DNA of 64,000 nucleotides from Synechococcales cyanobacterium CNB (GTDB lineage Bacteria > Planctomycetota > Phycisphaerae > Phycisphaerales > UBA1924), in contig SZOZ01000006.1 in the NCBI GenBank assembly GCA_030263455.1, positions 62,001 to 126,000 on the forward strand, in the 5' to 3' direction. The translations under genes and the position numbers were made by a program. Every line of letters starts with the position of its first letter. The first letter of the stretch is position 1. The notes under the pieces were generated by a model. That model saw only the letters and a program-made list of their open reading frames with translations, had not been told where the DNA came from and ran no database searches. Shown piece after piece: positions 26,108-64,000 of the stretch.

Positions 26108-27814
26108 TCACCACCCACGCGCGACCGCGACCACGCTCTCGATGATCTCACGCGAGTTCGCGCATCGAGGGCACTTGTGCTGCCCGCCCAGCTTCCCGCG
26201 CGATTCGAGCCAGCGGTGGATCGCCCCCGGCGGCAGAGGCGTAACGACCGGAGGCGCCATGCCGAGGTCGGCCGTTCGCTTCGTCGTGTAGTCCACGTTC
26301 TGCGACTTGAGCGCGCGGTCGAACGCCTCGACGAACGCCGCCGGCACCGTGCCCGCGATCTCCACCGCCAGCTCCAGCCCGGGCCGCCGACCCTCTCCAG
26401 GGTACACCGGCGCAGCGGTGAACTCCCCGACCGTCACGCCCGCCTCGCGGGCCGCAGCCGCCACCGCGTTCTCGACGTGCTCGACGATGATGTTCTCGCC
26501 GAAGGCGTTGATGAAGTGCCGATGCCGGCCGACAATGCGAAGGCGACAAGGGCCAACAAAGTCGCGGCCTCCTGTCCCCGGGGCGGGGCCTTGAAGGCCC
26601 AGTCTCGCCCTCGGTATCGAATCAAACTCCACAACGTCTCCCAGCACGTACCTCCACAATCCCGCGCACGTCGAGAGCACGACGACGTACCTCACCCCCG
26701 GCTCGACCTCATCGCACGCGAACGCGCGCGGCGAGGCCGAGTCGATCTCTTCCAACGGCACAAACTCAAAAAAGTTCCCGTGGTCCGCGCACAGCCGCAA
26801 CGAAGGCTGCGACACCCCCTCACGGTTCGGCTCGTCCTGGATCGCCACGAACGCCTCGCTCGCCGGGTACAACTCGATCCGGTGCGGGATGTCCTCGTTC
26901 TCGTTCCCCGACCAGAACCGACGCACGCGAGGATCGAACGGCGCATACTTCACGCCACCATGCACGAACACCCGCAGGTTCGGCCACAGGTCGCGGATGC
27001 ACGACGCGGCACGCCCCCGCTCGCGCGCGACCTGCAACATCCGATCGAACAGCACGATCGCCCACGACGGCATCCCGCTGATGAACCGCACGTCGTGATC
27101 GACGCACAGCCGCGCCATCGCGTCGATCTTCGCCGGCCAGTCGCTCATCAGCGCGATCTCACGCCCGGGCAGATACACCTCGCTCAGCGGCCAGCGGATC
27201 AACCCCGTCACCAGCCCCGACAGGTCGCCCGTGCGCACGCCGTGCTCGTTCGTCTCGACGCTCGTGGACCCGCCGATGAAGAGGCTCCGCCCTCCCATCA
27301 AGCCCGGGAGCGAGACCCCGAACCGAACCGCGTGCGCGAAAATGTCCAGGCTCGCCCGGTAGTTCGACCGCATCATCTCCCGGGAGACGGGGATGAACTT
27401 GTCGCCCGCGGTCGTGCCGCTGGTCTGCGCGAAGTCCCGCACCAGCCCCGGCCAGAGCACGTCCCGCTCGCCCCCCTCACGCATCCGCGCGATCCGCTCG
27501 CGGAAGGCGTACCAGTCCGCGACCGGCGCCGAGGCACGGTATCCCGCCAGCATCTCGTCATCAGGCAGCGACGCCAGGCGCGCAAAGCCGTGCGAACGCC
27601 CGAACTCGCACCGCGCCGCTCGCCGCAGCAGCCACCGCAACTGCGCCCGCTGCACCCGCGCCGTGTGCTCCGCCCACCAGCGCGTGTCCGAGAGCCTCGC
27701 CGACCGGCGCGCAACACGTGCCCGCAGCGCGTGCCCCACGATCGAGGTCCAGCGCCCGTTCGCGGGCGAGTGTGCCGCGCTGGCCCGGTCAGCGACTGCC
27801 ACGGCCGTTCGCAC
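26108..27814 (-). CDS. GH3-family acyl-adenylate/amide synthetase
   Basis: A 568-residue protein of the GH3 auxin-responsive family, whose plant members adenylate carboxylic acids and join them to amino acids. Visible markers are FAQTSGTTAGDKFIPVS (phosphate-binding loop, about 128-144), IELYPASEAFVAIQ, CAGLWRYVLGDVVEFDSI and LRIVGRHRHFINAFGENIIVEHVENAV. A REP palindrome (26580-26606) lies in frame between DSIPR and LRIVGR, adding roughly 20 residues (ARLGLQGPAPGTGGRDFVG) to a loop. The C-terminus has an extra Cys pair (HKCPRCANSRE). The GTG start overlaps the upstream hydrolase gene by 26 nt, suggesting coupled translation. The acid substrate is unknown. Confidence 0.86.
   Translation of the reverse strand: MRTAVAVADRASAAHSPANGRWTSIVGHALRARVARRSARLSDTRWWAEHTARVQRAQLRWLLRRAARCEFGRSHGFARLASLPDDEMLAGYRASAPVADWYAFRERIARMREGGERDVLWPGLVRDFAQTSGTTAGDKFIPVSREMMRSNYRASLDIFAHAVRFGVSLPGLMGGRSLFIGGSTSVETNEHGVRTGDLSGLVTGLIRWPLSEVYLPGREIALMSDWPAKIDAMARLCVDHDVRFISGMPSWAIVLFDRMLQVARERGRAASCIRDLWPNLRVFVHGGVKYAPFDPRVRRFWSGNENEDIPHRIELYPASEAFVAIQDEPNREGVSQPSLRLCADHGNFFEFVPLEEIDSASPRAFACDEVEPGVRYVVVLSTCAGLWRYVLGDVVEFDSIPRARLGLQGPAPGTGGRDFVGPCRLRIVGRHRHFINAFGENIIVEHVENAVAAAAREAGVTVGEFTAAPVYPGEGRRPGLELAVEIAGTVPAAFVEAFDRALKSQNVDYTTKRTADLGMAPPVVTPLPPGAIHRWLESRGKLGGQHKCPRCANSREIIESVVAVARGW
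26580..26606. repeat. REP-like palindrome copy inside the GH3-family gene
   Basis: 27 nt matching the 5' rdgB copy (59059-59085) except for two loop bases (TGA for TTC) and one stem base (A for C). The hairpin is GGGGCCT-TGA-AGGCCCA. On the minus strand it encodes part of GLQGPAPG without breaking the frame. Confidence 0.8.
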
Positions 27815-46003: not shown

Positions 46004-46107
46004 ACGGACCCGGGGGTTGACCCCGTCGATCCGGACAGCTCAGGCCGCGATGCCCGCCGTTCATCCGTCCGCGCGGCTCCCGGCGGCTGCCCGAGGCGTG
46101 CCGACCC

Positions 46108-46191
46108 GTGCCCGAGCCGCGCGGGCACGTGCCCGACACCCTCCGGCGCGTGCCGCGGCCGCTCGGACCTGTGCCCGAGCCGCGCGGGCAC
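46108..46191. repeat. Twice-repeated 21-nt GC hairpin between convergent genes
   Basis: An identical 21-nt unit, GTGCCCG-AGCCGCG-CGGGCAC, occurs at 46108-46128 and 46171-46191, with further partial CGCGGGCACGAGCCG units to about 46220. It fills most of the 255-nt gap between fahA and the FIST gene, which converge. Strong hairpins on both strands without U-tracts; possible bidirectional termination or a small tandem repeat. Confidence 0.6.
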
Positions 46192-46258
46192 GAGCCGCGA
46201 TCGCGCGGGCACGAGCCGCCGGGGCCTCGGCGCGGGGTTCGGAGCGCAGAACCTGCGC

Positions 46259-58636: not shown

Positions 58637-59917
58637 ATGGGACCGATCGTCGTCGCCACCGGCAACCCGCACAAGCTCGAGGAACTGCGCGCCATCCTCG
58701 GCCCGCTCGGCATCGAACTGCTCTCGCTCGCCGATGCCGGCGACACCGGCCCCGAACCCGACGAACCCGGCTCCACCTTCGAAGAGAACGCCGCGCTGAA
58801 GGCTCTCGCCTACGCCGTGCGCACCGCCCGCCTCTGCCTCGCCGACGACTCGGGCCTCGAAGTCGATGCCCTCGGCGGCGCACCCGGCGTCATCAGCGCC
58901 CGCTACCACTCCGACGGCCGCGAGACCGACCTCCCCCGCGCAGAACGCGACCGCCTGAACAACGAACGCCTGCTGCGCGATCTGCGGGACGTGCCGCTCG
59001 AGCGTCGGGGGGCGAGATTCGTCTGTGCGATGGCACTGGCGGGTCCTCCACCCTCCCGGGGGCGGGGCCTTTCAGGCCCCGTCTCCCCCCCTCCCCCCCT
59101 CGCCAAACGCTGGCTCACCCCAGCAAGTCTGCACACGCGCACCTCCGACCTCCTCCCACACTGGGAACATGGTGGCTCCACCTACTTCCTGACTTTCTGC
59201 GTCCGCTCAGGCTCCCTGACCGAGGCTGAGCGTGCGATCGTGCTCGCCGCCAGCATGCATTGGCATCAACTCCGAGTGCGTGTTCATCTTGTCGTTGTGA
59301 TGCCCGACCATGTTCACTTGATCGTCACTCCGCTCCGTGCAACGGATGACGAGTGGGTGTCGATTCCGTGGCTTATGCAAAGCGTCAAAGGGTTCACGGC
59401 CAGCAAGATCAATGCACTTCGAAACACGTCCGGACCTTTCTGGCAGGACGAGTACTTTGATCGCATCATCCGGTCGGCCGACGAGTACGCCGAGATTGTT
59501 GAATACACGGGGATGAACCCGATCAGGGCAGGGCTTGTTGATGACTGGCGTAAATACCCGTTCATGGCGGGGGAGGAGATTGAGGAGAGGGAGAGGCGGA
59601 GACGGGGCCTGAAAGGCCCCGCCCCGAGGGATCAAGGCCCCAGCCCGACGAATGAAGGCCGGAGTCCCTTCGAAGAGTCCGCCCGCGGGCTTGTTGCCCT
59701 CGTCCGCGGCACGTTTGAAGGCCGAATCGGCCTCCCCGGCGACGTCCCCCGAGGCTCGAACGGCTTCGGATACGACCCCCTCTTCCTTGTCGCCCCCGGC
59801 TTCACACGGACCAGCGCGGAACTCTCCGCCGACGAGAAGAACCGCGTCAGCCACCGCGGCAACGCCGCCCGGGCCATGGCCGAGGCCATCGCACAACTTC
59901 TTCGCTCCGGCGCGTGA
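58637..59917 (+). CDS. rdgB: XTP/dITP pyrophosphatase (RdgB/HAM1) with in-frame inserted RAYT transposase domain
   Basis: A continuous 426-codon frame. Residues 1-137 are the N-terminal part of RdgB: IVVATGNPHKLEELRAIL, GSTFEENAALKALAYA, LADDSGLEVDALGGAPGVISARY, RARFVC-type RGARFVCAMALAGP. Residues about 350-426 are its C-terminal part: GLVALVRGTFEGRIG, PRGSNGFGYDPLFL, SAELSADEKNRVSHRGNAARAM. Between them lies a complete REP-associated tyrosine transposase (about 165-312): HWEHGGSTYFLTFCV, HLVVVMPDHVHLIV with HUH motif H225-V-H227, FWQDEYFDRIIRS, VEYTGMNPIRAGLVDDW (Y290 candidate catalytic). The insertion falls in the loop after the ALA strand, away from the nucleotide site. G+C falls to 53% in a hand-counted 60-nt stretch of the insert against 75% in rdgB. 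Whether RdgB activity survives is unknown. Confidence 0.9.
   Translation: MGPIVVATGNPHKLEELRAILGPLGIELLSLADAGDTGPEPDEPGSTFEENAALKALAYAVRTARLCLADDSGLEVDALGGAPGVISARYHSDGRETDLPRAERDRLNNERLLRDLRDVPLERRGARFVCAMALAGPPPSRGRGLSGPVSPPPPLAKRWLTPASLHTRTSDLLPHWEHGGSTYFLTFCVRSGSLTEAERAIVLAASMHWHQLRVRVHLVVVMPDHVHLIVTPLRATDDEWVSIPWLMQSVKGFTASKINALRNTSGPFWQDEYFDRIIRSADEYAEIVEYTGMNPIRAGLVDDWRKYPFMAGEEIEERERRRRGLKGPAPRDQGPSPTNEGRSPFEESARGLVALVRGTFEGRIGLPGDVPRGSNGFGYDPLFLVAPGFTRTSAELSADEKNRVSHRGNAARAMAEAIAQLLRSGA
59059..59085 (+). repeat. REP palindrome, left end of the RAYT element
   Basis: 27 nt; hairpin GGGGCCT-TTC-AGGCCCC at 59064-59080 flanked by GGGGC and GTCTC. Exact inverse of 59599-59625. Encodes RGLSGPVS in the rdgB frame. 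Confidence 0.92.
59599..59625 (-). repeat. REP palindrome, right end of the RAYT element
   Basis: 27 nt; hairpin GGGGCCT-GAA-AGGCCCC at 59604-59620. Exact reverse complement of the left copy. Encodes RRGLKGPAP in the rdgB frame. Confidence 0.92.
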
Positions 59918-62988: not shown

Positions 62989-64000
62989 TCACCGCATCCC
63001 CGGCGGCCTCACGAACGCACGCGATGCGAACCGGTACGACGCCAACGCCCCGAACAGCATCCACAAATAGTTGTTGTTGTACGTCCCGTATGCCGTCCTG
63101 ATCGCCGATATGCGGTCCGCGCCGACCCACCCGCTCGACACCTCCGGCAGCGGCCAGACCGACCCCGCGATCGCCGCCAACGTCGCCGCCACAGCGCACA
63201 ATCCGAGCCTCCAGTCACCGCGGCCCGCCACTCGCAACGCCACCGACCCCACGAACGCCCCCAGCGGCCACACCAGCGAGTCCAACCGCCGACTCGTCAG
63301 GTGCGCAAGCAGCAACCACACCCCCAAACCCACCACCGCCGCCGCCCATGCCGACACCATGCCGGCAATCCGCCGCCCCTGCGCAGAGCCTTCGCCCGAG
63401 GCGGGCCCTGCACTCGGGGCGCGGCCTTGCAGGCCCCGTCTCCATTCCTCCCTCTCCCCCCCACCCCATCCCCCCCCCTCCAGCCTCTCCTCCAGTTCTC
63501 TCTCCAAGGCAAGCAGCCTGGGGTCGCCCCCCCCTTCCTCGTGCCTCGAAGCCCGGTACTCCCCCACCGCCTCCAGGTACCGCTCCGCCCTCTCGCGCAC
63601 CTCGTCATCCCACCGCAGCCCCAGCGACCGGCACACGCGCTCCAGCTCCCCCGCCGGTGCGCTCACCAGCCCCTCGTACCGCACCCGCACCAGCCGATCA
63701 GGCCCGAGCCGCAACTCGCGCGCATCTCTCAGGAACCGCCTCTCCGCCTCCATATATTCCACCACGATCCTCTCGCGCAGCGCATCCTCGTCCGGCATCG
63801 CCTGCAGCGACTGCGACTCGAGCCGCCGATGCATCGCCACGTTCGATCGCACCACTTCCTCCGCCCGGCGCATGATGTGCACAAATCGCACCCGGCCCCC
63901 GAACAGCCTGTCCAGCTCGCGCACCCGACCCGTGTGGCTCGGCGACTTGAGCGCGAGCGTCCGCCCTCGCTTGCCCGCGCTCACCTTCCACGCGAACGCC
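62989..64000 (-). CDS. Sulfotransferase-family protein with C-terminal membrane domain, 5' end outside window
   Basis: The frame stays open to the window edge, so the N-terminus (with the PAPS 5'-phosphosulfate loop) is missing. The visible part has ALKSPSHTGRVRELDRLFGGRVRFVHIMRRAEEVVRSNVAMHRRL, the 3'-phosphate-binding region of bacterial sulfotransferases, then DRLVRVRYEGLVSAPAGELERVCRSLGL. A linker containing a REP copy (63416-63442; peptide RRGLQGRAP) follows. The last 110 residues hold about four membrane helices (MVSAWAAAVVGLGVWLLLAHL, SLVWPLGAFVGSVALRVAG, LGLCAVAATLAAIAGSVW, YNNNYLWMLFGALASYRFAS). A sulfotransferase with a C-terminal membrane anchor is uncommon. Its substrate is unknown. 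Confidence 0.82.
   Translation of the reverse strand, partial: AFAWKVSAGKRGRTLALKSPSHTGRVRELDRLFGGRVRFVHIMRRAEEVVRSNVAMHRRLESQSLQAMPDEDALRERIVVEYMEAERRFLRDARELRLGPDRLVRVRYEGLVSAPAGELERVCRSLGLRWDDEVRERAERYLEAVGEYRASRHEEGGGDPRLLALERELEERLEGGGWGGGEREEWRRGLQGRAPSAGPASGEGSAQGRRIAGMVSAWAAAVVGLGVWLLLAHLTSRRLDSLVWPLGAFVGSVALRVAGRGDWRLGLCAVAATLAAIAGSVWPLPEVSSGWVGADRISAIRTAYGTYNNNYLWMLFGALASYRFASRAFVRPPGMR
63416..63442. repeat. REP-like palindrome copy inside the sulfotransferase gene
   Basis: 27 nt with three differences from the left rdgB copy (one G to C in the stem and two loop bases). Hairpin core GCGGCCT-TGC-AGGCCCC. On the minus strand it is read in frame as RRGLQGRAP in the linker between the two domains. 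Confidence 0.8.

Follow-up and report, generated by a model that had tools for sequence, protein, structure and literature searches.

REPtrons consist of an HUH/Y1 transposase, the REP-associated tyrosine transposase (RAYT), with REP pairs at both ends and further REPs dispersed in the genome (PMC2817692; PMC3733652; PMC6006769). Why hosts keep RAYTs, which are stable and usually single per REP family, is posed as an open question in the open-licence text of PMC6006769. The open-licence text of PMC3733652 describes REPs located within genes for repair proteins, tRNA synthetases and others, along with in-frame REPs and Rickettsia palindromic elements (RPEs). In the open-licence literature searched, no account was found of a RAYT lying in frame within a core gene, and none of six fusion or in-frame terms occurs in PMC2817692. 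Judged against that literature, in-frame REPs are already known and the nesting of RAYTs in core genes is what appears new here. Two further kinds of element invite comparison. IS200/IS605 elements also combine a Y1 HUH transposase with hairpin ends. Inteins lie in frame in core genes, are sporadically distributed with empty sites, and persist through dependence on the host gene.

A nested RAYT of this kind is found in rdgB within the window, i.e. the whole 64,000-nucleotide stretch of DNA that was analysed. Its parts are as follows:

58637..59917, plus strand: chimeric rdgB::RAYT ORF of 426 aa without an internal stop, in which a REP-associated tyrosine transposase splits an XTP/dITP diphosphatase in frame
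58637..59047, plus strand: N-terminal part of RdgB with the LADDSGL motif (Ham1 match, residues 49-182 of P0001)
59059..59085, plus strand: REP at the left end of the nested unit (peptide RGLSGPVS)
59138..59581, plus strand: RAYT (HUH/Y1 transposase) domain with intact HVH and Tyr motifs (NF047646, alignment, fold match to 4er8)
59599..59625, minus strand: right REP, inverted, read as RRGLKGPAP
59693..59914, plus strand: C-terminal part of RdgB with the GFGYDP motif (residues 398-464 of P0001)

P0001, the 471-aa translation of the chimera, was used for the Pfam and NCBIfam scans. Its residues 221-354 match the RAYT family NF047646 at 85.5 bits (cut-off 80). The nested REP-RAYT-REP unit contains no stop codon, and the stretch from the left REP to the transposase domain lacks an in-frame ATG, GTG or TTG; a CTG occurs at 59129. 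Mapped onto a solved RdgB structure (6wwd), the insertion falls between residues 131 and 136, where the unit interrupts a beta-hairpin. The REPs had been taken in the original prediction to flank rdgB; they instead bracket the transposase in frame inside the gene. A second, weak RAYT-like frame (G000:C6:128123-128416) lies just outside the window and scores 27 bits, under the cut-off. A structure model of the chimera, used as support only, has low confidence (mean pLDDT 61, from five sequences), with stretches below 50 at the REP-coded linkers (140-176 and 324-348); at that confidence it superposes on RdgB 3tqu with a TM score of 0.77 of the target (rmsd 7.2 Å) and on RAYT 4er8 with 0.69 of the target (rmsd 11.6 Å).

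The unit resembles a REPtron in its HUH/Y1 transposase domain, which scores over the family cut-off, in the inverted REPs at its two ends and in the dispersal of the same REP family through the genome; it differs in lying in frame inside a core gene, with neither the usual start nor its own stop. Unlike an IS200/IS605 element, it matches the IS200 model NF033573 at 18.2 bits, far under the cut-off of 55, and is the sole RAYT over cut-off in its genome (G000), where the chimera is likewise the sole rdgB match. With inteins the nested REPtrons share residence in core genes, sporadic spread, empty sites and host dependence, the differences being that no splicing domain was found, that the sites are variable loops, and that the insert apparently remains part of the protein.

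Two more REP copies in the window lie within genes:

26108..27814, minus strand: GH3-family gene carrying a REP and resembling the lyso-ornithine lipid synthetase OlsH (568-aa ORF)
26580..26606, plus strand: REP copy within the GH3 gene, a 27-nt palindrome giving GLQGPAPG in minus-strand translation
63416..63442, plus strand: REP copy in a sulfotransferase-family ORF, read on the minus strand as RGLQGRAP

The palindrome at 26580-26606 has three differences from each of the copies at 59059-59085, 59599-59625 and 63416-63442, and the shuffled window gave no REP match, which bears out the predicted in-frame 27-nt REP with three differences; as had been implied, the copies in rdgB and in the sulfotransferase ORF likewise lie in frame. 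The 568-aa ORF matches the GH3 N, M and C domains, and its nearest NCBIfam model, OlsH, is reached at 347 bits, under that model's cut-off of 620. GH3 proteins were matched in 39 of the 61 genomes searched, and 30 listed loci, including the one described here, were aligned. Two of these 30, from the genome under study and its congener G001, contain GLxGPAP, which is missing from the remaining 28. Loop length differs across the alignment, and the congener G002 has a shorter, unrelated loop in place of the REP-coded one; the GH3 REP is thus an insertion into a tolerant loop. Either it arose before the split of G000 and G001 and was lost from G002 or is absent there, or it was gained on two occasions. 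The prediction of an unbroken frame and a loop position is supported, while other details need adjusting. The few residues said to normally separate the GDVVEF and LRIVGR motifs are seen in the shortest loops only, the length differing elsewhere; about nine residues of the supposed insert of roughly 20 are supplied by the REP, the remainder of the loop (TGGRDFVGP) being unrelated to it; and the REP-coded stretch is shared with G001 rather than confined to this genome. A member of a repeat family, in frame in a conserved gene and absent from 28 of the 30 aligned proteins, the GH3 copy is of the same kind as intragenic REPs and RPEs, likewise small in-frame palindromes, which differ from the rdgB unit in carrying no transposase gene.

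A search of the 3.2-Mb genome with the pattern GCGGGGCCTNNNAGGCCCCGTCTC, allowing up to three mismatches, gave 52 matches (reversed control: 0), of which 40 were left after second-strand readings of one palindrome had been removed. The counts below use the 21 copies with at most two mismatches; the 19 of 40 sites with three mismatches were excluded, several of them seeming degenerate or accidental. One copy shows a paired change on both stem arms (GGAGCC...GGCTCC). Genes were called with a dicodon caller trained on the window and the loci, a codon score around each REP having proved too noisy, and 0.897 of the loci was coding. Eleven of the 21 copies are intergenic, three touch or overlap gene ends (one by a single base) and seven are wholly intragenic. 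Two of the intergenic copies (G000:C6:145202 and G000:C7:227747) lie 59 bases from contig ends with the same flank and may be one site; they are probably the opposite sides of a single repeat, or mark where two contigs join. At two other REPs (G000:C2:528794 and G000:C3:167918), the called gene ends inside the palindrome, with a TGA in one frame. Since 7 of 21 copies are wholly intragenic in loci that are about 90% coding, REPs are depleted in genes. The symmetric GLxGP frame is used by six of the seven intragenic copies (binomial against 1/3, p ~0.007), or by four of five without the linked rdgB pair (p ~0.045), a frame preference that is suggestive only, given few copies that are partly linked. 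The proposed genome-wide selection for REPs with an open frame thus fares poorly: 11 of 21 copies are intergenic, and the frame bias is weak and drawn from seven intragenic copies.

At up to two mismatches the REP family has 21 copies in G000, 12 in G001 and 14 in G002, and no match in nine other genomes of the bacterial family, so that among the 12 genomes searched it is limited to one genus. The canonical REP foot, 5' GT[AG]G, was not found; the copies read ...AGGCCCCGTCTC, and the foot in the opposite orientation is GAGA. REP classes with other feet exist, according to the open-licence text of PMC6006769. A separate repeat with 21-nt spacing (family D3) occupies positions 46080-46205 of the window.

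RAYT matches of relatives in frames of about 1300 aa proved to be ValRS and LeuRS with an in-frame RAYT. A profile of nested RAYTs scores nested members at 134-250 bits, against 35-74 for 30 other RAYT loci of the order (L150-L179). The profile also finds L199 (in G109) at 167 bits, an ordinary stand-alone member with paired REPs on both sides, as in a REPtron. In a tree of 51 sequences, 12 of them ordinary RAYTs, the nested ones and L199 form one clade (96/93). The insert in Kbl branches within the LeuRS inserts (97/85 and 99/91), a placement that points to host switching by a nested RAYT. Across 301 genomes of the order, the clade profile gave at least 62 matches in at least 51 genomes (E up to 1e-22) and, at E ≤1e-40, at least 56 matches, two of them incomplete. 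For 51 of these 56 the host gene could be identified and the RAYT lies within its frame (ValRS 27, RdgB 12, LeuRS 10, Kbl 1 and MiaA 1). Four of the other five have small frames only (167-248 aa), and one, L192 in G267, has a 1233-aa frame with runs of N and no host domain; it was assigned no host and was not counted as nested. Five of the 51 chimeras reach a contig end, namely the RdgB of G018 and the ValRS of G124:C87, G271:C143, G277:C89 and G282, and in G018, G124:C87 and G277:C89 host sequence is present on one side only.

Among named genomes, at least 29 nested cases occur in the best 80 of 509 related loci, the hosts being ValRS (9), IleRS (6), RdgB (4), PurH (3) and, once each, LeuRS, AlaRS, HscA/DnaK, RarA, PriA, GcvP and a DUF1156 protein; eight of the 29 are probably the same genomes as census matches. 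Going by their names, three nested loci come from outside Planctomycetota: a deltaproteobacterium (L254), a Limisphaerales bacterium (L287), which we take to belong to the Verrucomicrobia, and a Verrucomicrobiota bacterium (L305). The scores of several nested relatives on NF047646 are 60-80 bits, under the cut-off of 80. Some candidates were set aside: L289 and L301 seem to be nested in methyltransferase-like hosts, which is established only in part; L272, L250 and L290 have RAYT frames with extensions of no assigned family; and in L293 an archease follows the RAYT in one frame, as a terminal fusion or an overlap. The deltaproteobacterial DUF1156 protein, which is anti-phage-associated, has a GIY-YIG domain and the nested RAYT in one frame (L254:3840-7313). 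In the ValRS of G002 (L220:718-4800), a different HUH-like transposase, with a weak PHROG transposase match (E 0.007) and REP-like PLPHGRGS flanks, sits at the loop that holds the RAYT in other genomes, and different elements may use the same in-frame ValRS loop.

Most genomes have no copy of the host gene other than the fused one. The nested ValRS is the only one over the family cut-off in 16 of 19 genomes; in the other three, of which G282 has an additional ValRS piece without the insert, it is split by contig ends. The nested LeuRS is sole in four of six genomes, and G009 and G191 have an extra partial LeuRS frame. ValRS motifs are kept in 23 to 26 of 27 chimeras, the misses being due to contig ends, one sequence variant and G289; all 13 RdgB chimeras have LADDSGL and 12 have GFGYDP, the exception ending at a contig end. 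A count of the SHR motif in RdgB was dropped, as this motif also matched a chimera without the C-terminal part. The nested ValRS of G289 (L195) has, after residue 1090, a second stretch with REP-coded flanks and two in-frame stops, although the genome search, contrary to the frame reading, gave no stop within its ValRS matches. It is a broken gene, an out-of-frame REP insertion or an assembly error, and was counted against the reading of these loci as nested REPtrons.

The HuH motif is intact in all 51 inserts checked (27 in ValRS, 11 in LeuRS and 13 in RdgB), a set that overlaps the 51 census chimeras and is not identical to it. A loose Tyr pattern is found in 49 of the 51. Of the two exceptions, one is truncated where its contig ends and the other, the ValRS insert of G005 (L136), has Ser in place of the catalytic Tyr, which was also counted against the nested-REPtron reading. 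In the four of seven chimera pairs whose dS is usable, the RAYT has a dN/dS of 0.13-0.18, and a deficit of amino-acid changes is seen in all seven (simple binomial p from 0.006 to 3e-18), the host parts of the paired chimeras being constrained alike or more loosely. These substitution patterns indicate purifying selection on the nested transposase.

For the flanks, 240 nt to the left of each RAYT was compared with 240 nt to the right, with mismatched pairs as controls. The mean inverted score of nested RAYTs is 27.6 against 11.2 for mismatched pairs (n=35), or 27.3 against 10.7 (n=23) once contig-edge and duplicate loci are removed and L289 and L301 kept, and that of stand-alone members is 24.5 against 10.2 (n=26). 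Taking the better of the inverted and direct scores, 25 of 35 and 19 of 23 nested loci, and 14 of 26 stand-alone ones, lie beyond the 99th percentile of the controls. Read as protein, the flanks are linkers that vary in length and sequence, e.g. GTGFQPV and RLEAGPT or GLSGPV and GLKGPAP. Transposase and linkers together make up about 190-230 residues in RdgB, and the inserts sit at length-variable loops. A search for solo-REP scars covered the ValRS loop where it was readable, in 15 of 30 loci including L328, which has an insert. The RAYT-free loop of G035 (L351) reads GGRNACPT and resembles REP-coded peptides found beside nested RAYTs elsewhere; it is a possible solo-REP scar or landing pad.

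Among the congeners, G002 has a collinear rdgB::RAYT chimera with 92% identity, and G001 has a plain RdgB with a hairpin of 14 residues and no RAYT. The hairpin is RAYT-free in 15 of 21 readable loci (G001 and 14 more). No RAYT of the clade was found in G001 despite its 12 REP copies, which counts against the nested-REPtron reading. Between G000 and G002, the left REP and the RAYT show the highest identity (0.96-0.99), with a drop on both sides within rdgB (window positions 58900-59700) such as a recent exchange would leave. The RAYT dS of this pair (0.06) is well under that of the host (0.29), and the element was probably exchanged later rather than passed on by plain co-descent. In G230 and G253 the values are 0.41 and 0.40, as in co-descent.

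The GH3 palindrome is probably a solo REP dispersed by a REPtron that resides in rdgB as a non-splicing in-frame protein insertion. The two inverted REPs of the rdgB unit are read as linkers. In the proposed mechanism, the host gene would be translated whole with the RAYT included, and the transposase would fold as an extra domain on disordered REP-coded linkers. The nested RAYT would remain a working ssDNA (HUH) enzyme acting on REP hairpins and would scatter REPs, a few of which could end up in frame at loops that tolerate them, as in GH3. A core, usually single-copy host gene would guarantee expression of the element; as a frameshift or imprecise deletion would then be costly or lethal, the element would be maintained by inheritance and occasionally reach another host gene. 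The wider proposal has about an even chance of being right: a REPtron clade that leads an intein-like life without splicing, with REPs as linkers, core single-copy genes as hosts, translation within the enzyme, maintenance by host dependence, occasional in-frame moves to another core gene, and seeding of the genome with protein-coding REPs.

The intein-like distribution, at single sites in conserved core genes that are empty in relatives, is also what would be expected if the inserts were removed before the host protein works, by protein splicing as in inteins or by RNA splicing as in introns. This is very unlikely: no Hint or intein domain is among the Pfam matches of five chimeras (P0001, L130, L139, L143 and L186), the variable loops and the differing lengths and sequences of the REP-coded linkers speak against it, and a frame kept open through the insert would be needless for an intron. 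Removal could instead act on DNA, as programmed or phase-variable excision in which cutting by the HUH enzyme at both REPs returns some of the population to an uninterrupted host gene. The inverted REPs at both ends, the intact HuH motif and the possible solo REP-coded peptide in the ValRS loop of G035 all suit such excision, which we nevertheless consider improbable, because the assemblies hold the inserted form, including genomes in one or two contigs (G051, G093 and G099), and an open, conserved frame would be unnecessary.

Purifying selection on the RAYT that is about as strong as on the host, and residence in ValRS across families f1, f2, f4 and f6, would fit a domesticated transposase, no longer mobile and kept as a useful extra domain of the host enzyme, e.g. 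for DNA or RNA binding. Domestication is rather unlikely, given the same clade in unrelated enzymes with host switching, the inverted REPs around the inserts, and a presence that is patchy even between congeners. That the fused frames are chance open frames in GC-rich DNA or misassemblies, and the GH3 REP a chance palindrome, is extremely doubtful. The window has a GC content of 69%, long spurious frames are common in it, and the ValRS frame of G289 is broken elsewhere; against this, host profile matches resume in the same frame on both sides of the insert, fused frames of more than 1000 aa also occur at 53-61% GC (L232, L242, L254, L287 and L305), and the chimeras come from many separate genomes, with no REP match in shuffled sequence.

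For one clade, the nesting of a REPtron in core genes offers a direct and testable answer to the question of why RAYTs persist. It also suggests that nested RAYT proteins have perhaps been set aside as fusions or annotation errors. If the proposal is true, a loop of a tRNA synthetase or another core enzyme can accommodate a transposase together with its linkers.
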